From Methanoculleus caldifontis (GTDB lineage Archaea > Halobacteriota > Methanomicrobia > Methanomicrobiales > Methanoculleaceae), in assembly GCF_032842345.1 (NCBI RefSeq), contig NZ_WBKO01000001.1, forward strand, positions 1,550,001 to 1,614,000: a DNA stretch of 64,000 nt, in the 5' to 3' direction. How positions within the stretch are numbered: position 1 is the first letter of the stretch; the number at the start of each line of letters is the position of its first letter. Under the pieces are notes generated by a model. The model did not search any database, was not told the origin of the DNA, and was given only the letters and a program-made list of their open reading frames with translations. Below, piece after piece: positions 21,299 through 45,717 of this stretch. The position numbers and the translations under genes are program-made.

Positions 21299-21472
21299 AT
21301 GAGTGAAACGACCCGGAAGGTTATGCGCTGCCCGATATGCCGGAGCACCGACATCTACTGGGACGCCCGTGGCCTGTACGCGACGCTGTATCATTGTCGG
21401 CAGTGCGGGTATCAGGGAGCGTTTATTCTGGAGTGTGAGGACGCAAAAGATGATGGGCCGGGCGGGAGTTGA
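21299..21472 (+). CDS. Small zinc-ribbon protein
   Basis: A 57-residue protein from ATG 21299 with two CxxC pairs (CPICRS and CRQCGY) separated by about 24 residues, the pattern of a rubredoxin-like zinc ribbon. Its last six codons are read from the antisense strand of a tRNA-Ala 3' end (21454-21508), so the natural C-terminus may have been replaced when something integrated there. Function unknown. A longer frame from 21227 is possible. Confidence 0.6.
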   Translation: MSETTRKVMRCPICRSTDIYWDARGLYATLYHCRQCGYQGAFILECEDAKDDGPGGS

Positions 21473-21508
21473 ACCCGTGGTCTCTTCCATGCCGGGGAGT
21501 TCCCCTGC
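21454..21508 (-). pseudogene. Decayed 3' part of tRNA-Ala(GGC)
   Basis: Read on the minus strand, this shares GGCATGGAAGAG, a T-arm of the form CGGGTTCAA-TCCCG and a terminal CGG(C)CCA with the intact tRNA-Ala(GGC) at 45646-45717, with a few substitutions; the anticodon stem is mismatched and the 5' half is gone. It is best read as an attachment-site remnant at the left edge of the accessory region. Confidence 0.65.
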
Positions 21509-27517: not shown

Positions 27518-29071
27518 ATGATCACCGGCGAAATCAAGAATCAAGTCGACCACATCTGGGATGCCTTCTGGTCCGGCGGTATCTCAAACCCACTGGAAGT
27601 GATCGAGCAGATTACCTACCTGCTCTTCATCCGCCGCCTCGACGACCTTCACACTCTGGAAGAGAACAAGGCCAACCGGCTCAGTAGACCGATGGAACGG
27701 CGGGTATTCCCGCAGGGCAATGATGCCAAGGGCCGCGCTTACGAGGACTTCCGCTGGTCCCGCTTCAAGCACTTCGCCCCGGCCGAGATGTTCACCGTGG
27801 TCGACGAGCACGTCTTCCCTTTCCTACGCGACGATCTCGCGCAGCAGCTTGGCAACGGAGACTCCACCTATGCGCACCACATGGAGGGCGCTCGCTTCAC
27901 TATCCAGAAGCCGGCGCTGCTCGCCAAGGTGGTTGATATGCTCGACAAGGTCCCGATGGAAGATCGCGACACCAAGGGTGACATCTATGAGTATATGCTT
28001 GCCAAGATCGCGACCGCTGGGCAGAATGGGCAATTCCGCACCCCGCGTCATATCATCCAACTGATGGTCGAACTCACGGCACCGCAGCCGAACGACGTCA
28101 TTTGCGACCCTGCCTGCGGCACGGCGGGCTTCCTGGTCGCGGCGGGTGAATACCTGCGCAAGCACTACCCGAACCTGCTCCACGACGAGACATTGCGCAA
28201 ACACTTCCACTACCACCTCTTCCACGGCTTCGACTTCGACAACACGATGCTGCGCATCGCCAGTATGAACATGCTGCTGCACGGTGTGGAGGGCCCGGAT
28301 ATTCGTTACCGCGACTCGCTTGCACAGGACCATGCGGGAGAGGAAGAGAAGTACACGCTGGTGCTTGCCAATCCGCCCTTCGCGGGCAGCCTCGACTACG
28401 AGAACACCGCCAAGGACCTCCTCCAGATTGTCAAGACCAAGAAGACTGAGTTGCTCTTCCTCGCGCTCTTCCTCCGCCTCTTGAAGTCCGGCGGACGTGC
28501 AGCGGTGATCGTGCCCGAAGGCGTGCTCTTCGGGTCGAGCAAGGCGCACAAGGAGTTGCGCCGCATCCTGGTCGAGGATCAGAAACTCGATGCCGTGGTG
28601 AAGCTCCCTAGCGGTGTGTTCAAACCCTACGCGGGCGTTTCGACGGCGATCCTCGTCTTCACCAAGACCAACTCCGGCGGCACCGACTTTATCTGGTTCT
28701 ATGATGTTGAGGCCGACGGTTGGAGCCTCGACGACAAGCGCACACCGCTCCTGTCTGAAGACAAGCTCGGTTCCGTACCCTGCACGGCGCTAACCGACGA
28801 CGAGTACGCGATGAACAACCTGCCCGATGTGCTCGCACGCTGGCCGCAGCGAGCCGGCGCCGAACGGAACCGCCCGCGCACTGCGCAGAGTTTCTGCGTG
28901 CCAAAAGATGATATTGCCGCCCAGGGCTACGACCTCTCGCTCAACCGGTACAAGGAGGTGGTGTACGAGGCCGCCGAACACCGCTCGCCGAAGGAGATCC
29001 TCGCCGATCTGTGGAAGCTGGAGGACGAGATCCAACGGGGGATGAAGGAACTGGAGAGGTTGTTCGGATGA
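27518..29071 (+). CDS. hsdM: Type I restriction-modification methyltransferase subunit
   Basis: A 517-residue HsdM. The N-terminal helical domain (about 1-150) is followed by the adenine-N6 methyltransferase core with the SAM motif DPACGTAGF (197-205) and the catalytic NPPF (285-288), then a helical tail that binds HsdS. It methylates adenine within the site chosen by HsdS and is part of the M2S(R2) complex. A GGGAGAG ribosome binding site precedes ATG 27518. Its stop overlaps the hsdS start by four bases. Base and codon use look less archaeal than in the core genes, which suggests transfer. Confidence 0.96.
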   Translation: MITGEIKNQVDHIWDAFWSGGISNPLEVIEQITYLLFIRRLDDLHTLEENKANRLSRPMERRVFPQGNDAKGRAYEDFRWSRFKHFAPAEMFTVVDEHVFPFLRDDLAQQLGNGDSTYAHHMEGARFTIQKPALLAKVVDMLDKVPMEDRDTKGDIYEYMLAKIATAGQNGQFRTPRHIIQLMVELTAPQPNDVICDPACGTAGFLVAAGEYLRKHYPNLLHDETLRKHFHYHLFHGFDFDNTMLRIASMNMLLHGVEGPDIRYRDSLAQDHAGEEEKYTLVLANPPFAGSLDYENTAKDLLQIVKTKKTELLFLALFLRLLKSGGRAAVIVPEGVLFGSSKAHKELRRILVEDQKLDAVVKLPSGVFKPYAGVSTAILVFTKTNSGGTDFIWFYDVEADGWSLDDKRTPLLSEDKLGSVPCTALTDDEYAMNNLPDVLARWPQRAGAERNRPRTAQSFCVPKDDIAAQGYDLSLNRYKEVVYEAAEHRSPKEILADLWKLEDEIQRGMKELERLFG

Positions 29072-30252
29072 GTGTACGGAACAGCGTTCCCCTCGTTGAA
29101 GTTGCGGAAGTCTTCAATGGAAAGACACCATCCAAGTCAGAACAGCGAAGTCGCGGGCATCCTGTGCTTAAGATTAAGGATGTGAGCGACCTAGGTGAGT
29201 TCCGAGGCACATTCGACTCATTCATTGATCCTGAGCTCGCCGATGCCTACGCAAACAAACAGCTCCGCGAAGGCGATACGCTGATTCTTAATGCTGCGCA
29301 CAACGCGAACTATGTGGCCTCGAAAACCTTCCGTGTGCAACGCCCCACCGTGGGGGCTTTCGCAACCGGCGAATGGTTGGTTCTCCGTCCAGTAGAGTCT
29401 CGACTAGATCCAGGATTTATGTTCCATTGGGTAAATAGCCCTGATACGCGGCGAGCGATTCGGGACATGGTCAAGGGAATCCATCTTTATCCCAAGGATG
29501 TTGCGCGTCTTCGTATCTCGCTTCCACCCCTCCCTGAGCAGCGGCGAATTGCGGAGATCCTAGACAAGGCGGATGCGCTACGGACCAAGCGCCGCGCCGC
29601 CCTCGCCCAGCTTGACACCCTCATCCAATCCATTTTCCTCGATCTGTTCGGCGACCCCGCCACGAATCCGAAGAGGTGGCCGAAGAGAGCGTTCGGTGAA
29701 GTATGTGAAACCAGGCTTGGGAAGATGCTCGACCAAAAGCAACAGACTGGTAAGCATCGGCGTCCCTATCTGCGCAACGCAAACGTGCAGTGGTTCAGAT
29801 TTGACATCACCAGCCTGTTCGAAATGGACTTTGATGATGACGATCGTCGTATTTTCCGACTTCAGTCTGGGGATCTGTTGATCTGCGAGGGGGGTGAGCC
29901 TGGACGTGCGGCAGTGTGGCGAGGCGAGCTTGAGGAATGCTATTTCCAGAAGGCGCTTCATCGTGCTCGCCCTAATCCCAATCTGGCATTGGCTGAGTAT
30001 CTCGCCTGGTTGTTGTGGTTCCTTAATCAGGCGGGCATGCTTAGCGGCGTGACGTCTGCGACGATCGCACATCTGACGGGCGAGAAACTGGCGGTGCTGC
30101 CAACAATGCTGCCGCCGTTGTCCCTACAACAAGAGTTCGCGAACCGCGTCACTTCCATCGAAAATGTGGAGGCAAGTTTCCAAACCTCACTTCACCGACT
30201 TGATGGAATGTTCGCTTCACTCCAGCACTGTGCCTTCCGGGGGGATCTATAG
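29068..30252 (+). CDS. hsdS: Type I restriction-modification specificity subunit
   Basis: A 394-residue HsdS with two target-recognition domains (about 1-150 and 205-345), each followed by a conserved spacer helix: LPPLPEQRRIAEIL at about 152-165 and LPPLSLQQEFANRV at about 348-361. Each domain reads one half of a bipartite DNA site. The second half is less conserved than the first, as usual. ATG 29068 overlaps the hsdM stop (ATGA). Confidence 0.95.
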   Translation: MSVRNSVPLVEVAEVFNGKTPSKSEQRSRGHPVLKIKDVSDLGEFRGTFDSFIDPELADAYANKQLREGDTLILNAAHNANYVASKTFRVQRPTVGAFATGEWLVLRPVESRLDPGFMFHWVNSPDTRRAIRDMVKGIHLYPKDVARLRISLPPLPEQRRIAEILDKADALRTKRRAALAQLDTLIQSIFLDLFGDPATNPKRWPKRAFGEVCETRLGKMLDQKQQTGKHRRPYLRNANVQWFRFDITSLFEMDFDDDDRRIFRLQSGDLLICEGGEPGRAAVWRGELEECYFQKALHRARPNPNLALAEYLAWLLWFLNQAGMLSGVTSATIAHLTGEKLAVLPTMLPPLSLQQEFANRVTSIENVEASFQTSLHRLDGMFASLQHCAFRGDL

Positions 30253-30254
30253 CC

Positions 30255-31373
30255 ATGCGCGGAGAGCTTATCGGCGTGTGGTCGGAGATGTGGCGAGGGA
30301 TTTGGCTACCGCTCATAGAGCAGCCGCTTGATGAGAACGAAGAGGGCGTGCCGGCGGACATCTTTTGTGAGTTGTACCGCGAGCTCGCCAAGGCTCTAAA
30401 GAGGCCAACAGACGATAGTGCGATCGTCTTGCTCGTTGAGGACGCTGTCACATTGAAAGAGGCTTTCGAACTCAGTGCGCATCGATCAGGTCAACAACTG
30501 GTACTTGAGCAAGTAGATGAGGCATTCAGTCAATCGGGCGCTACAGAGCTTATACATGCCGGAGAAAGAAGAACGGCTGTCGAAGCTGCGCTGACAACTC
30601 TGCTCGGACAACCTGCAGCTCCGCTCTTGGATGCACAACTGCACGAACTCGTGCAGGATCCCTTGAGGGTTGAGGCAGCGAGGCGGCGCGCACTCGAACG
30701 GATAATTAACGATCAGCAGAAGAGCCGCGAGGCATTTGAGAATACAAGAGCCGAAGACCTCGCCGGGGAGCGGGCGCTGGTCGGATTTCTCGAATCCGTG
30801 CCCGATGCGCTGAAAGAACTCGACTGTAACGATCTGACCAACACCTACTTCGACCTGCTCGCCGTCTTTATCGAGAAGTTCAGCCTCCGCTACGATCTGT
30901 GTCCTCCGTGCAGACTCTGTCCGAACCTCCCCGGTGTCTTCGTGAGCCTTGTTCGAAACCTACAAGCACTGGCCGCCACCGACCCGCACCTCGACACCCT
31001 AATGAAGGAGTTCGAGAACGCGATCCGCAATCTACAGCACGATTGCTCTGAGGGCCACATCAAGACCTGTATTCAAAAGCAAGTAAACTTGTTAGAAGCC
31101 ATCGGGGGGACATATCCTGGTGTCAAAGATGGAGAGCTCGGGAGTATGTGCGGCCAGATTAAAAGCTGGCCACACCCTGCGGTAAGAGCAGCTCTAGGGA
31201 ATCTTTACGGGTTTGCATCTTCTTACCCCGGAATCCGACACGGCGGCAATGCCGAAAGCGCGTTACGCAATGTGGACATGCGCGATTTGGTTGCGATTTC
31301 TATCGTGTTCGCTGGCTTCACACCGTACCTGAGCAATGGGCTCGACGCCGACCAAGTGTATCGGGGGGCATGA
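30255..31373 (+). CDS. Abortive-infection-like (Abi-C) protein in the restriction operon
   Basis: A 372-residue protein placed between hsdS and hsdR, 2 bases after hsdS and 1 base before hsdR, so it belongs to the operon. The N-terminal part is mainly helical; a CPPCRLC cluster lies near residue 217; the last ~60 residues ([20 protein letters not shown] then [16 protein letters not shown]) match the pattern of the abortive-infection C-terminal domain (an R-H-G-x-A-type HEPN-related helix pair). It may be an RNase-like effector controlled by the complex, or an accessory factor. The Abi-C match is by eye. Confidence 0.65.
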
Positions 31374-31374
31374 G

Positions 31375-34300
31375 ATGAGCCAGTTCGCCTTCCTCCAGCA
31401 CGAATGGGCCGTCGTGTTCGAGGCAGCGTCGAAGGCCGAGGCGGCGGTCCACGCCGACCCAAGGACGGCCTGTTTCTATGCCCGCCGTGCGCTGGAGCTC
31501 GCGGTGAGCTGGGCCTACAAGCATGACGCAGCGTTGCGGCTCCCGTACCAGGACAACATCTCGGCGCTGATCCACGAACCGAGCTTCAAGCAGACTGCGG
31601 GCGAGGCGGTGTTCAACAAGGCGCGGGTGATCAACACGCTCGGTAACCGCGCCGTGCATAGCCGTCGCCCAGTACCGGAGTCGGACGCGCTCGCGGCGGT
31701 GCTCGAGATGTTCCACGTCGCCTACTGGTTCGCCCGCACCTACGCACGCGCCGAGCGACCGGCGCCCGGGCTCGCGTTCGATCCGGCGGCGCTGCCCCGG
31801 CCCGCGCCAGCGGCGACGCAGACTGCGGAGCAGTTGCAGGCTCTAGAAGTGCGCTTGCGGGAGCGTGACGAAAGCCTCTCGGCGTTGCTAGTGGACAAGA
31901 CCGCGCTCGATGAAGAGCTGAAGCGCCTACGCGCCGAAGTCACGAAGGCGAAGAAGGCCGCCGAGGCACAGCCCGACACGCACGACTACTCCGAAGCCGA
32001 GACGCGGGACTACTTCATCGACCTGCTGCTCAAGGAGGCCGGGTGGCCGCTTGACCAGCCTCGCGACCGCGAGTTCGAGGTCAGCGGCATGCCCAACAAT
32101 AAGGGCAAGGGCTACGTCGACTACGTGCTCTGGGGGGACGACGGGAAGCCCCTTGGACTGATCGAAGCCAAACGCACGCGCCGCGATGCTCGGGTGGGGC
32201 AGCAACAGGCCAAGCTCTACGCCGATTGCCTGGAGCGTCAGTTCGGCCGTCGGCCGGTCATTTTCTACTCAAACGGCTACGAACACTGGATCTGGGACGA
32301 CATGCGCTACCCGCCGCGCCAGGTGCAGGGCTTCTACAAAAAGTCGGAGTTGGAGTTGCTGGTTCAGCGCCGCGAGACGCGGCGGCGGCTCGCCGAGGCG
32401 CCGATCAATCCAGCGATCGCCGAACGTTATTACCAGACACGCGCCATTCGTCGTATTGCCGAGGCGTTCGAGCGCGACCACGATCGCAAAGCGTTGCTCG
32501 TGATGGCGACCGGTGCCGGGAAGACGCGCACGGTGATCGCGCTCTGCGACCTACTGATACGCTGCAACTGGGTGAAACGCGTGCTCTTCCTCGCCGATCG
32601 CGTGGCGCTCGTGAATCAGGCAGTGAACGCTTTCAAGCGCCACCTGCCCGATTCGTCGCCCGTGAACCTGGTCGCCGAAAAGGACACCGAGGGGCGCGTC
32701 TTCGTCTCGACCTATCCTACCATGATGGGTCTGATCGACCAGGCCGCGGACGGTCAGCGACGCTTTGGCCCCGGACACTTCGACCTCATAATTATCGACG
32801 AGGCGCACCGGTCGGTGTTCCAGAAGTACCGTGCGATCTTCGATTATTTCGACTCGCTGCTCATCGGACTGACGGCGACGCCGAAGGACGAGTTGGATCG
32901 CAACACCTACAGGCTCTTCGACCTCGAAAGCGGCGTGCCGACCGATGCCTACTCACTGGAGGAGGCCGTGCGTGACGGCTACCTCGTGCCGCCGCAGGCC
33001 GTTTCGGTGCCGCTCAGGTTCCAGCGCGAGGGTATCACGTATGACGAGCTTTCGGAGGAGGAGAAGGACCAGTGGGATACGCTGGAGTGGGATGACGAAG
33101 GCACCGTGCCGGACCGGGTCGAGGCTCAGGCCGTCAACAGGTGGCTCTTCAACAAAGATACCGTGGACAAGGTGCTGGCGCATCTGATGACGCGTGGCCT
33201 CACGGTTGCGGGCGGCGACCGGCTGGGTAAGACGATCATATTTGCTAAGAATCAGCAGCACGCCGACTTCATCGCCGAGCGCTTCAACGTTAACTACCCA
33301 CACTACCGGGGCGAGTTCGCACGCGTCATCACCTTTAAAACCGAGTATGCGCAGAACCTGATCGACAACTTCTCCAACAAGGAGAAGGCACCGCATATCG
33401 CGATCTCGGTGGACATGCTCGACACGGGTATCGACGTGCCGGAGGTCGGGAACCTTGTCTTCTTCAAGCTTGTGCGGTCAAGGACTAAGTTCTGGCAGAT
33501 GGTCGGGCGCGGTACGCGGTTGTGCCCGGACCTGTTCGGCCCGGGACAGCACAAGGAGTTCTTCTATCTCTTTGACTACTGCCAGAACCTCGAGTACTTC
33601 AGCCAGGATATGCCGGCAACTGAGGGTTCGGCGGCAGCGTCGCTGGGCAAGCGGCTCTTCAACGCACGGCTGGAACTGGTCGCAGCACTGGATAGCCGTG
33701 CTCAGAACATGCCGGTCGCGACAGTTGGGGAGTCGACGGCGACATACGGTGATCCGAGGACGAACAATGAGGTGAGGCAGTCCGTCTCGGAACTGCTGCA
33801 ACGCGAGGTGGCGTCAATGAACGTTGACAACTTCGTTGTTCGCCCGCACCGGCGCCTGGTCGAGGAGTATGCTAAGCCCGAAGCGTGGGTAGCGCTGGCG
33901 GGAGAGGCTCTCTCGGAGCTTTCCTGTGAACTAGCAGGGCTTCCTACACAGCTCGATCCTGAGAACGAAGAGGCGAAGCGCTTCGATCTACTTGCCCTGA
34001 GGTTACAACTCGCCTTACTGCATGCCGAACCCGGATTTCCACGTCTGCGCGACCATGTCATGAAGATTGCCGGACTGCTGGAAGAGAAGGATGCCATTCC
34101 ATTGGTCCGCGAACAGATGGCCCTGATCCAGGATGTACAGAGCGATGAGTGGTGGCAAGATGTCACAGTGCCGATGCTGGAAGTGATGCGGCGCCGGTTG
34201 CGCGAGTTAGTGCAGTTCATCGACAAGCGCCAACGCAAGCCAGTCTATACGGACTTCGAGGACCTGATGGGGAGCGAGACTGACTTCACCCTGCCCGGCT

Positions 34301-34788
34301 GCACGGTGGGTACCGATCAAGCCAAGTTTGTCGCAAAAGCGCGAGCGTTCCTGAACCAGCACCTCGATCACACTGTGATTGCCAAACTGCGGATGAACCA
34401 GCCGCTTACCTGCCCTGATCTCGCAGAACTGGAGCGTTTGCTCGGTGAGAGTGGTACAGGTGGATTGGATGATATCCGTCGGGCGGCGGACGAAGCCCAT
34501 GGGCTAGGTCTCTTTGTGCGGTCACTCGTGGGGATGGATAGGAGCGCGGCCAAAAATGCGCTAGGAGGGTTCATCAGAGGAAAACCATTCACTGCGAACC
34601 AGCTTGAGTTCGTCAACCTGATCGTGGACCACCTGACCGAGCACGGGGTCATGGAACCCGCCCTACTCTACGAGTCGCCGTTCACGGACCTCACACCGCA
34701 GGGGCCGGAGGGTCTGTTCCAGTCGGCTGAGATGGATGAGTTAATCCGGGTGCTCAAGGCCGTGCGGGAGACGGCTGTGGCAGCTTAA
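31375..34788 (+). CDS. hsdR: Type I restriction endonuclease/translocase subunit
   Basis: A 1137-residue HsdR. Order: DUF4145-like HEPN domain (about 5-110), coiled coil (about 148-195), HSDR_N nuclease (about 205-330, with YVDYVLWG and [11 protein letters not shown] forming the D...ExK centre), superfamily-2 helicase with Walker A MATGAGKT (377-384), DEAH (475-478) and LTATP, second RecA domain with [12 protein letters not shown] and QMVGRGTRL, and an EcoEI-type C-terminal domain that binds the methylase. It translocates DNA and cuts unmodified molecules. ATG 31375 is chosen because it follows the previous stop by one base. Confidence 0.95.
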
Positions 34789-35391: not shown

Positions 35392-36222
35392 TTATATATA
35401 GTCCGTCGTTTCTTCATTTTTTTCAAATAACTTCCCACATTTTTCACATTTTATTACAGTCCAGACCGTGTAAGAGTAGGGTTCGATATCTTCGCCAATA
35501 CCGCGGTAATGCGTTGTAGTCTCGGTTGTTGCAATAATTTTTCCACCACATTTGGGACAATAACTGTAAATTGACTCAATCATCGTTTCAATCTTATTAA
35601 CTGTGTAATCAAGAATTGAAATCAAACTTTCTAGCGATTCAGGATCCAAGCGCCCAATATTGATTTTTTCAAAATTTTTGAGTTGTTGGAGTTGTTCTTT
35701 AAGGGCCTCATTAGTTCTTATGCTTTCCCCGTAATCTGGCTCAGGGGTTTTGAACCATAGTTTAGTAAATTCAATTTTTTTCGAATACTCATTTGCCAAT
35801 GTTCTTCTGTCGCGAAGTCCTCTCTTCCTCTCGCCTACCAGTGATTCCAGTCCCGATTTTGATCCCTTTGCTTGATTGATTAAGTATTCTAAATCACGAG
35901 TTTGAGGTTCAGCAAATATTGTGTGCGCTAATTTATTTCTCACTTCATTGACTTTTTTTATTAATTCTTGGTATTGAGTCACTGCTTTGGGATCCAGCTC
36001 ATAAACGAGTAAAAACCAGTTTCTATCTAAATTATAGGATTCCTTCACATCCAAATTAAGTTCAGTTCCAAGTCGATATATTAGTAATTGATAAAAGTTG
36101 ACGATTGCATAGCCGCTTTCTCGGTAGTCGACGTTAGGTTTATGATCATTATGACTATTACCTTTATTCAGATGAATTCTGGACAGTTCCAGTAAGTAAT
36201 CTTCAGATTCTTTGAATTCCAA
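35392..36222 (-). CDS. HEPN-like protein with C-terminal zinc ribbon
   Basis: A 276-residue, Lys/Glu-rich protein from AT-rich DNA. The N-terminal helical part ends in EVRNKLAH (RNKLAH at 95-100), which fits the R-N-x3-H motif of HEPN RNases. A helical middle follows, and the C-terminus has two CxxC pairs (CPKC 222-225, CEKC 259-262) forming a zinc ribbon. HEPN proteins are frequent toxins or effectors in defence loci. It follows the GHKL-nuclease gene at a distance of 476 bases on the same strand. The HEPN call rests on one motif and the helical pattern. Confidence 0.6.
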   Translation of the reverse strand: MEFKESEDYLLELSRIHLNKGNSHNDHKPNVDYRESGYAIVNFYQLLIYRLGTELNLDVKESYNLDRNWFLLVYELDPKAVTQYQELIKKVNEVRNKLAHTIFAEPQTRDLEYLINQAKGSKSGLESLVGERKRGLRDRRTLANEYSKKIEFTKLWFKTPEPDYGESIRTNEALKEQLQQLKNFEKINIGRLDPESLESLISILDYTVNKIETMIESIYSYCPKCGGKIIATTETTTHYRGIGEDIEPYSYTVWTVIKCEKCGKLFEKNEETTDYI

Positions 36223-36698: not shown

Positions 36699-38711
36699 TC
36701 ACATCGCCGCTGAAGAGGCATTTGCTTGTTTAACTGCTTCACTTGCGGTTTTCGTTTTTTCAATGAGCCTATTCTTTTGTATTTCAAGCTGATTGTTTAC
36801 GAAACTGTGCCTAATTTCACAATCGCTTAATATATCGCTCCACTTCCGAATGTATATTTTACAATTCTCTAAATCTTGGACTATCCCTCTTTCTCCCTTC
36901 CCCTCATAACTTTTTATCTCCCTCTCAATGAGGCCCCTTGAATCGTATTTCGTTCCGACTAAGATGAATTCCCACGAAAAGCTATCACCATTAAACCGAG
37001 GTTCGGATAATACCACGCTTAAATAGGTTTTTACTTGATTTAACTGCTCTAACCCAATTCGCTTTTTTGGGTGCTTAAGTTCGATAATAACATTGTGAAC
37101 GCCTTTATGGTGCTTATTTTGCCGACAGATGAAGATATCGACCTGTTTATTCTTATCAGGATTATCAATGTGAACTTTTTCATCCTTTGCCGATAGTATG
37201 CGAATCTGATTGCGAAGGGCTTTCTCGAAGGTGTCTTCAGCTGCCGCCACCAGGGCATATTGTTCCCCAAAAAGCCATGTATTGCTTTCCACAATTTTTT
37301 GGATGTGATCTACCTCATTTGCCCCAAAGGAGTCGTTGAATAGACATTCTTCTATCAGTTTCAGTACCATTTGTCTATCGGCGATTAATTTTATTGTCTT
37401 AACAATTTTCTGCATTTCAGTTACTTTGAGCAGCTCGGCCAATTCTCCCCTCTCGTCAGCATCGAGCTCCACAATATCCTCAATAATTTTCAAGATTTCA
37501 TCTCGATCTTCAGAATTTAGTACGACATTTAAGAGGCTTATGAGCATCTTTTGCTGCTCTTGACTTAAATCCAAAAAGATTCGTGGCTGGGTTGTATATA
37601 TCTCTTGAATTACTTCTTCCAGATCCTCTATCTGGATTAACTGAAAGGAATCGGCATCCTTTTTTGCGATAATACCTTCTCTCTCAAAGTCTGCGATGAC
37701 TTTTTTGGCATGTTGTCGTAAAAATGGCTTCCTTTTTCTTCGTAAATATCCCTGTAGTTGTTCAGTTAATTGTTTGAATGTCTCATCCGAGCGCCCAAAT
37801 CCAGTGATATTCTCTTGGTCTTCTGTGGAGTCAAATTTAAAGTTCCTGAAGTATTTACTTGCGATGAAAACGCTGTGATAAAACCTATCTCCCTTCTTAT
37901 TCAATGTCGTATACTCTTTATGGAGTTCGTTGCAATTATGATCTAAATAGTAATACTTTGAATATTCCTGGTTTAATGGTATTTTCCATCTAACATAACG
38001 TATAGAAAACATTTCTCCTTGTCGTTTCCCTGTCAAAGTAAAATTTTCTTCATCTCCTATAAGAGGACTATAATCTAACTTTACGCCATTAATAATTAAT
38101 TTGTAGCCTTTATACTTATTCAACTCCAAGAACCAGCAAAATTCCCGCTTTAAATATTCTAATAATTCGGTTTCCCCTACGTTTTTCCCATATTTATTGT
38201 GGTTGTACTCCTTAAAGTCAGAAAATGTCACCACTGTGCTTGGTTGTTTATTGGATTCTTCGGGATTTTCATCTAATCCCGAAAATAATTCAAGCTTGTT
38301 ACCTAATATTTCAATAGAATATGAGTATGTCTTCTCCCCTTGCTGGTACGCCGTTTCCCATCGAGCTCTTCGTGCGAAAGTAACAAACGTTAATCTACCC
38401 AATCCATTTTTCCCATGGTACTGTGATGTGTTTCGGTTATTGCCGTCGTCTTTGAGTTTATCCGATTCAAAAATGGGTTGAAATTTAAGATTGAGTTGGT
38501 CATGGGGAATACCATGACCATTGTCCCTGATAACAAGCCTTCGTAGCCCCCCTGCGCTAAACTCATAGTCGAGCTCAACTATGGACGCACGAGCATCAAA
38601 GCCATTCCAAATATACTCGGCCACTGCTTTGGGGAAATTTTTGTCAGTGAATTTTAATTTGCTCAAGGCAGTAATAATGCCTTCAGTGGTGATTTTAACT
38701 TCTTCTGGCAT
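36699..38711 (-). CDS. GHKL ATPase fused to a PD-(D/E)xK (Shedu-like) nuclease
   Basis: A 670-residue protein. Residues about 1-330 form a Hsp90/MutL-type GHKL ATPase: Asn36 in the N box (AEYIWNGFDA), DNGHG at 63-67, and GKNGLGR at 100-106. A helical connector follows (about 340-475). The C-terminal ~190 residues resemble the DUF4263/Shedu nuclease: WLFGEQYALVAAAED, then VDIF (Asp525) and IIELKHPKKR (Glu544-x-Lys546), followed by a helix with QLNQVKTY. It is probably an ATP-gated DNA nuclease used in defence. ATG 38711 is the chosen start; a GGGGAGAG-flanked ATG 33 bases upstream and ATG 38840 are alternatives. AT-rich, unlike the core. Confidence 0.75.
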   Translation of the reverse strand: MPEEVKITTEGIITALSKLKFTDKNFPKAVAEYIWNGFDARASIVELDYEFSAGGLRRLVIRDNGHGIPHDQLNLKFQPIFESDKLKDDGNNRNTSQYHGKNGLGRLTFVTFARRARWETAYQQGEKTYSYSIEILGNKLELFSGLDENPEESNKQPSTVVTFSDFKEYNHNKYGKNVGETELLEYLKREFCWFLELNKYKGYKLIINGVKLDYSPLIGDEENFTLTGKRQGEMFSIRYVRWKIPLNQEYSKYYYLDHNCNELHKEYTTLNKKGDRFYHSVFIASKYFRNFKFDSTEDQENITGFGRSDETFKQLTEQLQGYLRRKRKPFLRQHAKKVIADFEREGIIAKKDADSFQLIQIEDLEEVIQEIYTTQPRIFLDLSQEQQKMLISLLNVVLNSEDRDEILKIIEDIVELDADERGELAELLKVTEMQKIVKTIKLIADRQMVLKLIEECLFNDSFGANEVDHIQKIVESNTWLFGEQYALVAAAEDTFEKALRNQIRILSAKDEKVHIDNPDKNKQVDIFICRQNKHHKGVHNVIIELKHPKKRIGLEQLNQVKTYLSVVLSEPRFNGDSFSWEFILVGTKYDSRGLIEREIKSYEGKGERGIVQDLENCKIYIRKWSDILSDCEIRHSFVNNQLEIQKNRLIEKTKTASEAVKQANASSAAM

Positions 38712-38938
38712 ACGGCAAGGAGTATTGTGATAAACTCTCCCCATTAAGGTTTTGTTTTTACTTTTAAGAGGTAAAGGCCATCGGAGAACTATTTCCGCTA
38801 TTCTATGAAGCCAAAATCCTGAAGTTATAGAGGATTCCAAGAAAATTGGAGTGAGTCACTAACAGTACAGATACCCGAGCATGTCATAACACACCTCGTC
38901 TCTCACCCTCTCCGACCTTCCCGACAACCACGCGCCCC

Positions 38939-39052
38939 GCAGCGTATGTTATACTACCTCTCTAAGACCTCCCGCCGCCCACGCATGATCACCGGAGTGT
39001 ACAAAGGTGCAAGTGTACGTACCCAGAAGGAAGAGCCCGATAGAAAGAGAAA
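38939..39052 (+). promoter_or_regulatory. Promoter/operator of the ribbon-helix-helix gene, copy A
   Basis: The motif GTGTAC occurs twice (about 38998 and 39013, the latter as AGTGTACGTAC) before ATG 39053. The same arrangement, with a perfect palindrome, precedes copy B at 45411-45446. From AGCGTATGTT onwards the two upstream regions align for over 100 bases. Autoregulation by the encoded ribbon-helix-helix protein is likely. Confidence 0.55.
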
Positions 39053-39250
39053 ATGCCAAACGAACCGCGCAAAAACCGCGTCCGGCAACGCCTCCACATC
39101 CCAGTCTCCCCTGAAGTCCAAGACTATCTGAAAAACCGCATCGGCAACGTCAGCCTATTCATCGATACGACCATCAGCAACGCCACTCTATCGATTCAAC
39201 CATCGATAACAGTGCTTTCACAAAACAAGATGGACCGGGCGGGAATCGAA
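39053..39250 (+). CDS. Ribbon-helix-helix DNA-binding protein, copy A
   Basis: From ATG 39053 the frame reads a basic start (MPNEPRKNRVRQRLHIPVSP), then EVQDYLKNRIGNVSLFID, the strand-helix-helix pattern of a CopG/Arc-like protein. It enters a tRNA-Ala 3' end (39231-39250) in frame, giving MDRAGIE, and stays open to 39454 over the antisense of an ATPase gene, so the true end is uncertain; the annotated end marks the tRNA fragment. Copy B (45468) reads into the tRNA in the same frame. It could be a transcription factor or a recombination directionality factor for the element. Confidence 0.6.
39231..39250 (-). repeat. tRNA-Ala 3'-end direct repeat (attachment-site candidate)
   Basis: The 20 bases ending in CGGTCCA on the minus strand repeat the T-loop/acceptor end of tRNA-Ala(GGC) at 45646-45665 with two differences. 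Upstream sequence (the tRNA 5' part) is absent. Together with the shared ribbon-helix-helix gene it forms a direct repeat of about 310 bases with 45358-45665. Confidence 0.65.
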
Positions 39251-39277: not shown

Positions 39278-40945
39278 CTAAACCCCCGCCCCCAGCTCCT
39301 CCGACCCCGTGATCTCCCGGACAATCCCGGCAACGACCGCCCGCTCCTCCGGCTGCAGCCTCGTATAGTACAGCCTAGTATCCTTCGCCTCGACGATCGC
39401 CACGGCATCCGCGACCGGCTTCAAGAACCCCTCGTACCCGGCGCCCCCGGATAGAACGATCTCGCGGACGGCGCTCCCGACAGCGGAGACCTCCCCCGCC
39501 CCGATTAGCCGCTTCAGGAACCCTGCCGTCATCCTCCGTGCCGTTGCCGGGTCCAGGCGGCCCGCGTGCGCATATGCCAGTCTGATTAACGAGAGGCCGT
39601 TTGCCCGGTTCCCGGCCAGCAGCTCCTCCCCCGCGAGATCGAGCGTGATCTCCACGGACCGCGCCAGCCGGTCCGGGTCGTCGGGTTCTTCCCCGGCCTC
39701 CTTTAATCCCGCCAGAACATCCTCCCGCCTCCCGGCCGCGATCCGGTCCGGCAGGGCAACGCCCTCCATAACGCCCGATGCCCCCCGGTATGGTATATCG
39801 ACGGCCGCCGGATGCCCATGCCAGGCCTCCAGAAATCCGATGAGGACAAACACCCGGTCACGGCCGGCCGGCCTCCGCATCGCCCGCCACAGCGAAAAAA
39901 GCCGGTCCCGGGCCTCGTAGGTCGTCCTCTTCTTCATCGGGCGGGAGACGACGTAGCCCTCGGCCTCCAGCCTCCGGAGCTGCGCGTTCACCGTCGCGAG
40001 GTTCAGCCGGGCGCGCTCTGCGACGTCTTTCGGGGTGAGCGGGGTCTCTGCGGTGAGGATCGTATCGAGGATGAGCCGCCGCTGCCCCGGAAGCCTCCGG
40101 AAGACCTCCCGGTAGTAGGGCGTCTGCTCGTCCGCCAGCCTGAAGAAGGCCTCCGCCGCCCTGCCGGCCCCGCACTGCGAGAGGATCTCGTACAGCCGGA
40201 TCACCAGCCCCGGGTTGCCGCCGATGAGGTGCCGGAGCGCCTCGATGCCGGGCTCGTAGTCCCCGAAGTTCTCGATGAAGGCGGTATCGCCGTCGACCTC
40301 CGCGACCCTCCGCATGAGGTCCTTTGATTCGGCGCAGTCGAGCTCCCGGAGGTGAAAGACCCGGAAGAAGTTGTAAAACGGTTCCTCATGGTCGAGGACT
40401 CCGGGGAAGAGCGACGGTGCCGACGCAATGACCGAGAGATAATCTGTCCGCTGGAAGACCGACCGCAGCGCCCGGACCTCGCGCCTCTCCATCTGGTCAA
40501 AGACCTCGTGGATGTTCTCGACGAAGACCACGACCTGCCGCTCCCCGGCCGCTGCGGCGATCCTCTCGACCGCGGCCTCGCGGACCAGCGAATCCTCGCC
40601 GAGCGCGGCCACGTCGGAGGTCTCGACCCCCATCCCCGCGAGCACCCGGAGAAAGAAGTCGGACGCCCTGAATATCGAGTACTCTTCCTCTGCAAGGTCT
40701 ACCGGGATCACCAGGCCGGAGAGTTCGTCGCGTATCCTCCGGCAGAGCAGGCTCATCAGGTGGGACTTCCCGGCGCCCCGGGACCCGACCAGGAGGAAGA
40801 ACCGCGGCGTTCTGCTCGCGGACGCCCGGTCCGCTTCGTAAAAGAGGCTCTCCAGGAGTTCCTGCCGGCCGACGAGAAGGTGCTCGAGCGTCTCCCTTTC
40901 AAGGGCCGCGGGGAAGTAGCGGTAACACCTACCAGGTGCCGGCAT
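39278..40945 (-). CDS. Archaeal AAA ATPase with winged helix, second of a pair
   Basis: A 555-residue protein. An AAA/STAND-type NTPase module has Walker A GSRGAGKS (54-61) and a hydrophobic strand VVVFVENIHE as Walker B. After the lid comes a winged helix (TPKDVAERARLNLATVNAQL, EAEGYVVSRPM) and a C-terminal alpha-helical region ending LQPEERAVVAGIVREITGSE. It overlaps the end of the first ATPase gene by 17 bases, so the two are made together. Remnants of homologues lie at 17184 and 34973. Likely a regulatory or defence NTPase; substrate unknown. Confidence 0.7.
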   Translation of the reverse strand: MPAPGRCYRYFPAALERETLEHLLVGRQELLESLFYEADRASASRTPRFFLLVGSRGAGKSHLMSLLCRRIRDELSGLVIPVDLAEEEYSIFRASDFFLRVLAGMGVETSDVAALGEDSLVREAAVERIAAAAGERQVVVFVENIHEVFDQMERREVRALRSVFQRTDYLSVIASAPSLFPGVLDHEEPFYNFFRVFHLRELDCAESKDLMRRVAEVDGDTAFIENFGDYEPGIEALRHLIGGNPGLVIRLYEILSQCGAGRAAEAFFRLADEQTPYYREVFRRLPGQRRLILDTILTAETPLTPKDVAERARLNLATVNAQLRRLEAEGYVVSRPMKKRTTYEARDRLFSLWRAMRRPAGRDRVFVLIGFLEAWHGHPAAVDIPYRGASGVMEGVALPDRIAAGRREDVLAGLKEAGEEPDDPDRLARSVEITLDLAGEELLAGNRANGLSLIRLAYAHAGRLDPATARRMTAGFLKRLIGAGEVSAVGSAVREIVLSGGAGYEGFLKPVADAVAIVEAKDTRLYYTRLQPEERAVVAGIVREITGSEELGAGV

Positions 40946-42116
40946 AATAGATCCTCCACCAGTCCCGGAGCATCTTTGAGTAGAACCGCAACTCGCCAGG
41001 GGTCTCCGAAGTGACGTAGAAGTCGTGGTTCAGTTGTGCCAGCAGCGCTCTGAACGCATCCTCGCTCTCCGACGCGGTGCTCTGCCGGAAGATCTCGTAG
41101 GCGATACCCGCGGGCAGGGACTCCGCGAGACTCACCCTGCTTAAGATGGCGCGGGCGGCCTTCGCCTCCTGCCCGGAGTAGGTCGTCTGGAGGCGGCGCG
41201 AGTAGTGCTCGAAGTAGTGGCGCCCCTCGCTGCCGAGGATCCTCCTGCTGTAGACCCGCTCGACCAGCGCCGGGGAGGGCACCCCTCCGGAGATATCCGC
41301 CTCTTCCTTCAGGCCGGAGAGGACGATCATGAGGAAGTAGGGGATGTAGGGCTCGCCCACGCAGTCGAGAACCGCCCGCCCGATCTCCGGCGAATACTCC
41401 CACCCTTCTCCCCGAAAGACGCGTTCGACGACGGAGAGCGCGACATCTTCGCTGAACCCGCCGATGGTGACTCTCCGGAAGTCGTTGATGACCGGGGTCC
41501 CGCCGATATGGTAGACGACGTGGTCGATGCTGACCGAGCCCCCGACGATGAACCTCACCCCTGCCGAGACCTGCCGCAGCCGCCGGAACCACTGCAGGAA
41601 CTTCCTCGCATCCTCTCTCTCCATATTCTGTATGGCAACCGGAAACTCGTCGAGGATGATGCAGACCGGCCCGGTGAGCCCTGCAAAGATCTCATCCACC
41701 TTCTTTGCCTTCTCGTGCCAGTCGTCCGAGAACTCCGCTCGCAGCCGGCCCCGGAGCTTTGCCCTGAAGGCCGGGGTCTCGATCTCGTCGATATTCTCCT
41801 GCACCAGGGCAAACGCCTTGCCGAGCGCCGAGGAGATCCGGGCTCCGGGGCTCGCCCCCTCGCACTCGACGAGCGCCGTGACGAGATCGGTGATGAACTC
41901 CCCCGGGGAGTTGACGCTCTCGACCTCAAGGAATACGCACGATTGGTCTCTGCTCGCGAGGTCTCTCTCGATCTTTCGCATGATCGAGGTCTTGCCGAAC
42001 CGCCGGGGGGCGACGAGCATGACGTGGTCGTTCTTGATGGTGCTCAGGATGAACGCGGTCTCACGTTCGCGGTCGACGAAGTCGTCTCCTGTTGCGGGGC
42101 TTCCTACGGGCAGCAT
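40929..42116 (-). CDS. Archaeal ATPase (PF01637-like), first of a pair
   Basis: A 395-residue ATPase starting MLPVGSPATGDDFVDREREТ-like, the usual opening of archaeal ATPases of this family; Walker A is APRRFGKT (36-43), Walker B CIILDEFPV, and a sensor region FIVGGSVSID follows. The C-terminal part is a helical/winged region ending DWWRIYYAGTW. ATG 42114-42116 is chosen because the A/T-rich palindrome at 42142-42173 then acts as promoter; the frame is open to GTG 42194 through the palindrome, giving a longer alternative. Partner of the next gene, with which it overlaps. Confidence 0.75.
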   Translation of the reverse strand: MLPVGSPATGDDFVDRERETAFILSTIKNDHVMLVAPRRFGKTSIMRKIERDLASRDQSCVFLEVESVNSPGEFITDLVTALVECEGASPGARISSALGKAFALVQENIDEIETPAFRAKLRGRLRAEFSDDWHEKAKKVDEIFAGLTGPVCIILDEFPVAIQNMEREDARKFLQWFRRLRQVSAGVRFIVGGSVSIDHVVYHIGGTPVINDFRRVTIGGFSEDVALSVVERVFRGEGWEYSPEIGRAVLDCVGEPYIPYFLMIVLSGLKEEADISGGVPSPALVERVYSRRILGSEGRHYFEHYSRRLQTTYSGQEAKAARAILSRVSLAESLPAGIAYEIFRQSTASESEDAFRALLAQLNHDFYVTSETPGELRFYSKMLRDWWRIYYAGTW

Positions 42117-42141
42117 GTACGACACCAGACAGATCTGGTAT

Positions 42142-42173
42142 ATAACGAATCTGTTATATAACAAATTCGTTAT
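42142..42173. promoter_or_regulatory. 32-bp near-perfect palindrome over the ATPase-pair promoter
   Basis: ATAACGAAT (42142-42150) is mirrored by ATTCGTTAT (42165-42173), and the centre GTTATATAAC (42153-42162) is itself palindromic: 15 of 16 base pairs match. The centre resembles a TATA box 37 bases before ATG 42116, so a dimeric repressor could block transcription. A decayed copy is found at 35021-35053. Confidence 0.6.
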
Positions 42174-42388
42174 TCTCCGGGCAGGGGCCGGCACTATCTC
42201 GATGCTGGTAATAAGGTCCTGAACGCGACAGAAGAGTATGAAAAACTCATCGAAAAATTTCCGATTTGATATTTCAACGTATCTTTTTTCATAAATCCCG
42301 CTAGGAGAACATAGATAAATATTAAGTAACCCTTGCTCGATAATTTTATTGGTGGTACGATACGAGTAGAAGTCCTCCTAAAAACAGC

Positions 42389-43558: not shown

Positions 43559-45166
43559 TTATAAAATTTGTTTTCCAATGTTCAAAGCTTTTCGCATTCC
43601 AATGAATATTCTGTATTTAGAGTGAGTTTTAACTTTTGGTGCTAGATTAGCATAAGTTCTCTGTTTATAACAGAATTTCCCGAAATCTTCATTGCGAGTC
43701 CGTTCTAGATAACTGATTATATTAAGGTCATATAGCAACTGTAAAAATGTATCTGCATCAGAGCAGAATGGCGGGATCTTATAATTGTAATCGTAAGTAT
43801 ACTCAATTAATTTAAAAAATGCACTATTGAATTCAGAGTAATTAAAATCAGATTTACCGTTCAAGAAATCGAAAAACTTTTTGAACACTTCAAAGTCCTT
43901 TTCCGAATAAAAAAAGGACATCTGGTCTTTGATCTCTCCTAAATAATAGTCTGCCAATTGTCTTTGAAAATCTGTATTTTTAAAATCCTCATGAGAGAAT
44001 GCTTGAGTAGTCTTACCTTTTCTATTAACTGATATATCCCTTAAAATGTTCATCATCGTGACAATATCTCTTGGTCGATACAAGGAGTGTCTTAAGATGC
44101 CGATGAATGAATCATCAAAATCATGGTTACTACTCCTACGGGCAGATCGATTTGGAATTTTATATGGGAAGTAGTAATTCCACGCCGCTCCAGACTCAAG
44201 GGCTTCATCTTGCTGAGATCTTAAGAGATTGTCGGCTATGCTGAAGATGTAAGAAGTTCGGTAATTTTTATCCGTAGTATTCCAATCTAATATCACGGAA
44301 TTATCCCGCAATCTGTTATTTTGGTTTTGTAGTCCGAATTTGTTAAATATATCGGGTCTAACCAGCAATACTGCTCTTAAACTGCCACTATCACTTCCTA
44401 TCAAAGAGAAGAAATCATTATTAACGGTCCAAATTGCATTAGCTAGCCCCTTTATACAATCCAAGTAATCCTCAAAGGCGATGCCATATGGCTTAATATC
44501 GATACCATCAAGGAATAAAATATGATTCTTGGTTAAATTAAGGGTGCTTAATGCTTCTCGAAACTTTTGCTTTATGGTCATTAATTTTACTTGATATCGA
44601 TGCTCTGTCGATTCGAGCGTTTTTTTATCCTCACCACCGAATTTAAAGCCTGCTGGATCGTACTTAGAGAAAATTTCTGCGGCAACAGCAGAGTTTTCAA
44701 CTAGTTTTATTGCAAAAGGAATTTCAGGAGAGAAAGCCGATTTGAAAAATTCCCTCATTATATCTTGTAATTGCTTAAACTTTAAATACTTACTAATAAA
44801 GTTTGGCTCTTCATTTTCGAGGATTTGCTGGGAAATTAGGAAGTAAATAATTATTTCCCATATATCTCTATAGTCTGAGAGGCTCAGCTGATTTTCTTGT
44901 TTCAGCGTGACAAATTTATGATATTCCGTTTCCCTTAAAAATCGTATGGCGCCGTAATTCTCCTTATAGGCATTATTAGAGAAATACACTGCATATGCAG
45001 TTTTACCAGTCCCTTTCTCCCCTACCAAAAAATAAACATTGTCGTCACATAATTTGTCTAAAGCGTCAGTATGTATGAATATTTTATTAAACAGTTCTCT
45101 GTCTCTTGGACGCTTATAATTTTCAGCATCATTATAGCCTAGATCTAAATTAGCAATGGGAAGCAT
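43559..45166 (-). CDS. P-loop ATPase, Sll1717/FunZ-like family
   Basis: A 535-residue, AT-rich gene product. After a start typical of the family (NLDLGYNDAENYKRPRDREL) comes Walker A GEKGTGKT (49-56), a long helical insertion, the Walker-B-like strand HILFLDGIDI and VLLVRPDIF, and a helical C-terminus with YRPRDIVTMMNI. Such proteins are common in defence islands; their function is not established. The composition differs strongly from the core chromosome, and the gene is alone on its strand. Confidence 0.7.
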   Translation of the reverse strand: MLPIANLDLGYNDAENYKRPRDRELFNKIFIHTDALDKLCDDNVYFLVGEKGTGKTAYAVYFSNNAYKENYGAIRFLRETEYHKFVTLKQENQLSLSDYRDIWEIIIYFLISQQILENEEPNFISKYLKFKQLQDIMREFFKSAFSPEIPFAIKLVENSAVAAEIFSKYDPAGFKFGGEDKKTLESTEHRYQVKLMTIKQKFREALSTLNLTKNHILFLDGIDIKPYGIAFEDYLDCIKGLANAIWTVNNDFFSLIGSDSGSLRAVLLVRPDIFNKFGLQNQNNRLRDNSVILDWNTTDKNYRTSYIFSIADNLLRSQQDEALESGAAWNYYFPYKIPNRSARRSSNHDFDDSFIGILRHSLYRPRDIVTMMNILRDISVNRKGKTTQAFSHEDFKNTDFQRQLADYYLGEIKDQMSFFYSEKDFEVFKKFFDFLNGKSDFNYSEFNSAFFKLIEYTYDYNYKIPPFCSDADTFLQLLYDLNIISYLERTRNEDFGKFCYKQRTYANLAPKVKTHSKYRIFIGMRKALNIGKQIL

Positions 45167-45410
45167 GCATCATCCTCTGAACAAATATTCACGGATCTAA
45201 CTCAATATAAACCCTTTTAAATTGAATTAATATTTTAAATCTTAAATGACAGGATTAAATCCTAGATACAACACTGAACATCTAAAAGTTGCATGTTCAC
45301 ACTCTTTCTGAAATAGAGTAGCACAGCCTCCTCAGCAGCCGCGTACCGCATATCTCACAGCGTATGTTACTACCTCCTTAAGACCACCTGCCGTCCGTGC
45401 ATGATCACCG

Positions 45411-45446
45411 GAGTGTACGTACAAAGGTGCAAGTGTACGTACACTC
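45411..45446. promoter_or_regulatory. Paired GTGTACGTAC operators before ribbon-helix-helix copy B
   Basis: AGTGTACGTACACT (45432-45445) is a perfect 14-bp palindrome; a second GTGTACGTAC lies at 45413-45422. Both precede ATG 45468 and correspond to the diverged sites upstream of copy A. Typical of an autoregulated ribbon-helix-helix gene. Confidence 0.6.
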
Positions 45447-45467
45447 AAAACGGATGAAGCAGAGAAC

Positions 45468-45645
45468 ATGCCAAGAAAACCTCAAAAACGGCGTATCCGG
45501 AAGCGGATCTAAATCACCGTCTCCCCGGAAGTCCACGATTACCTGAAAAACCGCGTTGGCAATGCCAGTAGATTCTTGGATGCGCTAACCAGAGATGCTA
45601 TTTCCGGAATACAGCCTGTGATATTTTTTCTATCACGAAAAAGGA
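45468..45645 (+). pseudogene. Ribbon-helix-helix gene, copy B, with an early stop
   Basis: From ATG 45468 the frame reads MPRKPQKRRIRKRI, then TAA (45510-45512), then ITVSPEVHDYLKNRVGNASR and FLDALTRDAI. It aligns with copy A over the whole domain, so the TAA is a nonsense mutation. The frame continues through the tRNA-Ala antisense (MDRAGIEPA). The rest of 45167-45467 is AT-rich and gene-free. Confidence 0.65.
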
Positions 45646-45717
45646 TGGACCGAGCGGGAATTGAACCCGCGGCCTCTTCCATGCCAAGGAAGCGATCTTC
45701 CCCTGATCTATCGGCCC
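45646..45717 (-). tRNA. tRNA-Ala (anticodon GGC)
   Basis: A complete 72-base cloverleaf: acceptor GGGCCGA pairing with TCGGTCC and containing the G3-U70 wobble pair that identifies tRNA-Ala; D arm GATC/GATC; anticodon stem CTTCC/GGAAG with loop TTGGCAT (anticodon GGC); variable AGGCC; T arm GCGGG/CCCGC with TTCAATT; discriminator A. No intron and no encoded CCA. Its 3' end is repeated at 39231 and, in decayed form, at 21454. Confidence 0.95.

Follow-up and report, generated by a model that had tools for sequence, protein, structure and literature searches.

Methanoculleus caldifontis carries a gene that joins a GHKL ATPase to what we take to be a Shedu-related PD-(D/E)xK nuclease in one polypeptide. 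The product is very probably a defence enzyme of the paraMORC3 kind that acts on DNA as a single protein and in which ATP-driven closure of a clamp would license the nuclease. The gene lies in a 64,000-nt stretch of contig NZ_WBKO01000001.1 (assembly GCF_032842345.1), the whole of which is called the window here. Its catalytic residues are intact, both halves of the protein are under purifying selection, no partner gene is fixed beside it, and it is located in a mobile island. The defence reading is supported by the patchy distribution of the gene, by relatives on plasmids and in phages, by defence genes among the neighbours of relatives, and by the behaviour, described below, of mutants of a bacterial protein of like architecture, VcSduA.

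The GHKL-nuclease architecture has been published before, under the name paraMORC3 in 2008 and, with VcSduA, as Shedu type I-D in 2025; the window protein adds one more archaeal member. The paraMORC3 proteins have a GHKL domain with all ATP-binding motifs, an S5-type domain, and at the C-terminus a conserved restriction-endonuclease-fold domain with the signature E-D-ExK, and they occur sporadically in bacteria and archaea (Iyer, Abhiman and Aravind, 2008; PMC2292703). The window protein has all three features (intact GHKL motifs, an S5-fold domain and a C-terminal E-D-ExK nuclease), and it shows no architectural difference from paraMORC3, to which it is likened by described architecture and motifs. 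VcSduA of Vibrio cholerae protects E. coli against Drexlerviridae and its own host against X29, and the substitutions E27A in the ATPase and K557A in the nuclease each abolish phage protection; in this work VcSduA is placed in Shedu type I-D under DUF4263, the paraMORC3 name is cited for such an organization, and the GHKL domain is proposed to control the nuclease (PMC12137116, 2025). VcSduA and the window protein share the order GHKL ATPase, clamp-like middle and PD-(D/E)xK nuclease, a likeness drawn from architecture, and E27 and K557 correspond by role to E32 and K546. The spacing between the glutamate and the lysine is 530 residues in VcSduA, 514 in the window protein and 503-536 across its family, a range that takes in VcSduA but does not decide whether VcSduA belongs to this clade. 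VcSduA is bacterial and was assayed against phages, whereas the window protein is archaeal and known here from its sequence and a model.

The design put forward in a preliminary description of this DNA, a defence nuclease under the control of an ATP clamp, is thus already the published hypothesis. The VcSduA mutants support it; gating itself, its trigger and any activity of the archaeal protein are inferred. In the proposed mechanism, the GHKL domain would bind ATP and dimerize, and closure of the dimer would form a clamp through the transducer and the helical middle region. Clamp closure would bring the Shedu-type PD-(D/E)xK domains at the two C-termini into place on the DNA caught inside, or activate them there, with cutting in the closed state, and ATP hydrolysis would reset the clamp. 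The trapped DNA would probably come from an invader and be marked by, for instance, free ends or an unusual topology. The literature searched yielded no experiment on an archaeal member and no paper joining Shedu and methanogens; with the window protein, an architecture whose role in phage defence has so far been tested in Vibrio cholerae and E. coli is now also seen in an archaeon, one that has a sequenced close relative bearing the same gene. Current defence annotation misses it, as PADLOC-DB 2.0 profiles give no match for the protein.

The gene, its ATPase and its middle region

The gene occupies positions 36699-38711 on the reverse strand, with its stop codon at 36699-36701, and its product, started at an ATG, has 670 residues. 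The open reading frame listing allows a longer frame from a TTG start (36699-38840), but this is not supported: relatives align from residues 1-5, so that the ATG is the right start. The order of domains is GHKL ATPase, transducer, helical linker and PD-(D/E)xK nuclease. The preliminary description had named Hsp90/MutL-type ATPase motifs (N36, DNGHG and GKNGLGR), a nuclease centre of D525 and E544-x-K546, and an AT-rich gene inside an island. All of these hold: the motifs fall at E32-Y-I-W-N36, DNGHG 63-67, GKNGLGR 100-106, VD525 and E544-L-K546, and the region around the gene has a GC content of 38-42% against about 60-67% in the flanking chromosome, within an island associated with a tRNA-Ala gene. 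The motifs are no chance occurrence, as the HATPase_c_3 match and the invariance across the family, both given below, show.

The GHKL (Bergerat) ATPase domain spans about residues 1-170 (38202-38711, reverse strand) and contains E32/N36, D63-x-G-x-G67 and G100-xx-G-x-G-R106. Pfam HATPase_c_3 matches residues 26-138 above its curated cut-off (E 8.1e-16), and the top sequence relatives of the ATPase are MutL, Mlh1 and Topo VI subunit B. In the full-length predicted model (mean pLDDT 82.3), the best Foldseek matches in the PDB are ATPase fragments of TRAP1/Hsp90, Topo II, MLH1 and MutL, with E down to 1.1e-10. MutL, Mlh1, Topo VI B and Hsp90 thus have the ATPase fold and motifs in common with the window protein; they differ in that a C-terminal nuclease is absent or of another type. 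The transducer, an S5-like alpha+beta domain of about residues 171-290 (37842-38201, reverse strand), follows, with model strands between positions 204 and 284; its boundary was set by inspection of the secondary structure of the model. Foldseek matches that cover the ATPase plus the transducer include the 40 kDa N-terminal fragment of MutL and ATPase-transducer fragments of Topo II. The helical middle region of about residues 291-460 (37332-37841, reverse strand) is modelled with helices at 310-344, 355-374 and 418-458, and no family is assigned to it.

The nuclease domain and its relation to Shedu

The nuclease domain covers about residues 461-650 (36762-37331, reverse strand) and carries E466, D525, E544, K546 and Q559. 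Predicted by themselves, the last 216 residues adopt a PD-(D/E)xK fold (pLDDT 90.7, pTM 0.87). Against the PDB, this C-terminal model had no Foldseek match at E <= 0.001, and its weak matches are headed by EndoMS (E 5.2e-3). When 1000 of these weakly matching chains were re-aligned with VIA-align, among which middling Z scores are common, the first rank went to the B. cereus Shedu nuclease domain (8ti9_B; Z 10.6, rmsd 3.6, 145 residues aligned) and the second to E. coli SduA (8ps4_A; Z 10.0, rmsd 4.1, 161 aligned). Among the same 1000 chains, the BspD6I nickase was nearly tied with the Shedu chains at Z 9.9, and EndoMS reached 9.1. The structures of canonical SduA (8ti8/8ti9 and 8ps4/8ps5) align over 145-161 residues with Z 9.2-10.6; canonical SduA is unlike the window protein in having other N-terminal domains and no GHKL ATPase, and identity is 17-19%. 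Judged from these models, the tie in Z between BspD6I and Shedu does not settle the family of the nuclease domain on fold alone.

Because middling Z scores are common in VIA-align, profile-profile comparison was also relied on. The archaeal SduA reference set holds seven of eight SduA_C matches, one that fell below the curated cut-off (L127) having been left out; SduA proteins over the cut-off occur in 7/294 genomes of the phylum. Aligned to these seven with hhalign, the nuclease alignment of the window protein's family scored a probability of 95.9 (E 5.7e-9, 153 columns), with matching motifs Q-x(4)-E...W/P, PD, ExK and Q-x(3)-Y. The reversed SduA alignment scored 0.2, and the N-terminus of the window's HsdR scored 0.5, a weak control as it is a single sequence.

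Direct profile searches are less uniform. A rival reading is that the C-terminal domain is HsdR-like (HSDR_N) or BspD6I-like, with its Shedu likeness reflecting the common PD-(D/E)xK fold only. Pfam HSDR_N_2 matches 64/74 family members; on the window protein it covers residues 512-567 at E 0.006, below the cut-off. SduA_C (PF14082, DUF4263) matches neither the window protein nor any protein of its genome, and 3/74 family members weakly (best E 7.4e-4). The nuclease profile, run against PDB sequences, found nothing at E <= 10. The HSDR_N count and the BspD6I tie favour such a reading, yet the hhalign result with its shared motifs and its HsdR control opposes it, as do the PADLOC SduA models in the family (PDLC00401 in 15/74 members, PDLC00402 in 1/74) and the filing of the same architecture under DUF4263 in PMC12137116; we regard it as unlikely. 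From profile-profile and fold comparison we take the nuclease domain to be Shedu-related, the protein itself not being a strict SduA_C member. The union of a GHKL ATPase with a Shedu-like nuclease, as first suggested from the letters of the DNA, is borne out by family, profile-profile and fold evidence, and the PD-(D/E)xK core looked for by structure prediction is present, with Shedu nucleases matched.

Family, conservation and selection

Scanning genome contigs gave 263 matching stretches. A relative is encoded by 230 of them, and the best 80 of these were kept. Uninterrupted reading frames of 600-760 residues were found in 73 of the 80 and aligned; three split genes (L043, L063 and L070) and four that lack the nuclease (L077, L078, L080 and L081) were left out, and the family alignment has 74 full-length rows. 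Among these rows, drawn from the best 80 of 230 relatives, identity to the window protein runs from 51% in Woesearchaeota down to about 31%. Relatives were found in Woesearchaeota, Methanosarcinales, Methanophagales, Bacteroidota, Bacillota, Pseudomonas, Chloroflexi, Cyanobacteria and Patescibacteria. The ATPase residues E32, N36, D63, G65, G67, G100, G103, G105 and R106 and the nuclease residues E466, Q471, D525, E544, K546 and Q559 are invariant in all 74. Given the depth and good conservation of the family, structural work and studies of ATP gating could make use of an archaeal or thermotolerant member.

Within the class the gene is rare, carried at E <= 1e-20 by 2/199 genomes, namely its own and that of a congener (G097). 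The counterpart in the congener is identical at 614 of 670 residues. Between the two, dN/dS is 0.132 overall (0.153 for residues 1-300, 0.105 for 301-460 and 0.089 for 461-650): both halves of the protein are kept.

Distant relatives are present in 45 of 72,556 plasmid records and in 2 of 50,697 phage records, both from Pasteurella phages. The members of this distant subclass (L082, L083 and L084) have the same domain order and catalytic residues over their full length at 23% identity; they differ from the family in this lower identity and in their setting, a phage morphogenesis region or the vicinity of an LlaMI-type restriction system. In Pasteurella phage Pmp14 (L083, 4932-6890) the relative lies among tail genes and is likely a cargo gene, so phages carry the GHKL/nuclease family too. 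On a Psychrobacter plasmid (L082, 720-6905) the genes next to the relative encode a cytosine methylase, a restriction enzyme of LlaMI type and Drt2, an antiviral reverse transcriptase.

The nuclease-less relatives (L077:8001-9254, L078:7992-9269, L080:8001-9248 and L081:7923-9269), four of the best 80 of 230, are 415-448 residues long with intact GHKL motifs. A tblastn search with the 74 nuclease domains found none in about 17 kb around each of them, and the two from Pedobacter share one gene order. Such a nuclease-free clamp may have its own role. It can be proposed more broadly that the archaeal clade is a DNA clamp whose separable ATPase module, on closure by ATP, traps DNA topologically, with the Shedu-type nuclease as an add-on that makes a weapon of a DNA sensor and the nuclease-less relatives as the sensor or clamp acting by itself in its own function; we hold this to be unlikely and continue to favour an enzyme in which the clamp licenses the nuclease.

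The island and its neighbouring genes

One edge of the island is a tRNA-Ala(GGC) gene (45646-45717, reverse strand). Positions 21441-21493 repeat part of the 3' half of this tRNA (85% over 53 bp) and are the candidate far attachment site. The tRNA is present in 29 of 30 loci fetched across the genus, its own genome included, and in these 30 loci the sequence past its 3' end differs between species groups; in this genus, the 3' side of tRNA-Ala is a site of variable insertion. In the congener, the GHKL gene (89% identical DNA over 2.5 kb) directly adjoins tRNA-Ala, and the equivalent repeat, an exact 44/44-bp copy of the 3' end of the tRNA, lies about 11.9 kb further.

The neighbours of relatives were called crudely as longest open reading frames, those over 2000 residues or with a cut frame being skipped, and 139 of the 141 nearest were scanned (two, from L049 and L079, being omitted). 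At most 6 of the 139 share any one PADLOC or Pfam family. PtuA-like ATPases, type I R-M subunits, TIR, SEFIR, Schlafen AlbA, GmrSD and OLD-like proteins are among the commonest. Because most of the 139 match no defence family repeatedly, the genomic context supports defence loosely; the pattern fits, without proving it, a stand-alone gene often near defence genes.

A type I R-M cluster of HsdM, HsdS, a gene weakly similar to PDC-S32 and HsdR (27518-34788, forward strand) lies in the same island, as context outside the proposed system. Its presence favours a reading in which the window protein is a subunit of this or another island system and does not act on its own. So do the HsdS- and HsdR-like reading frames directly upstream of the split relative L043 and the link of paraMORCs to R-M operons made by Iyer et al. 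(PMC2292703). The R-M genes are, however, on the opposite strand to the GHKL gene, with a 276-residue gene (35392-36222) between them; the congener has the GHKL gene beside tRNA-Ala, with neither that gene nor the R-M block found beside it. Among the 139 neighbours scanned, no family is found in more than 6, and nuclease-bearing paraMORC3 genes often stand by themselves in the account of PMC2292703. A subunit role is quite unlikely on this evidence.

A role in DNA repair or chromosome topology (MutL-like or EndoMS-like) in place of defence is very improbable: the kinship of the ATPase with MutL, Mlh1 and Topo VI subunit B, the structural closeness of EndoMS to the nuclease (Foldseek rank 1) and the ATPase motifs retained by the four nuclease-less relatives speak for it, but the patchy distribution (2/199), the variable tRNA-Ala site, the presence on plasmids and phages and the defence phenotype of VcSduA (PMC12137116) stand against it.

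The gene for the stand-alone defence enzyme that we favour shares its island with several others. The AT-rich 276-residue gene encodes two C-terminal CxxC pairs, and profile searches (Pfam and NCBIfam) place it in no clear family. It was considered as a conserved partner and rejected, since the congener has the GHKL gene without it and relatives are without a fixed partner. Between HsdS and HsdR, a 372-residue gene (30255-31373) with no Pfam match resembles the PADLOC candidate PDC-S32 (E 2.1e-7). A stretch of about 300 bp near tRNA-Ala is repeated at 72% identity (38940-39250 and 45359-45665), with part of the 3' end of the tRNA copied where it ends; within the island, this makes a second and older junction that resembles an attachment site. 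Two overlapping AAA ATPase genes at 39278-42194 (one AAA_16 plus winged helix, the other AAA_22-like) are kept as one block in the congener at 93% DNA identity and are likely a system of their own. Adjoining tRNA-Ala, positions 43559-45166 encode a P-loop ATPase of the Sll1717 family (NCBIfam NF047389, E 3.8e-55).
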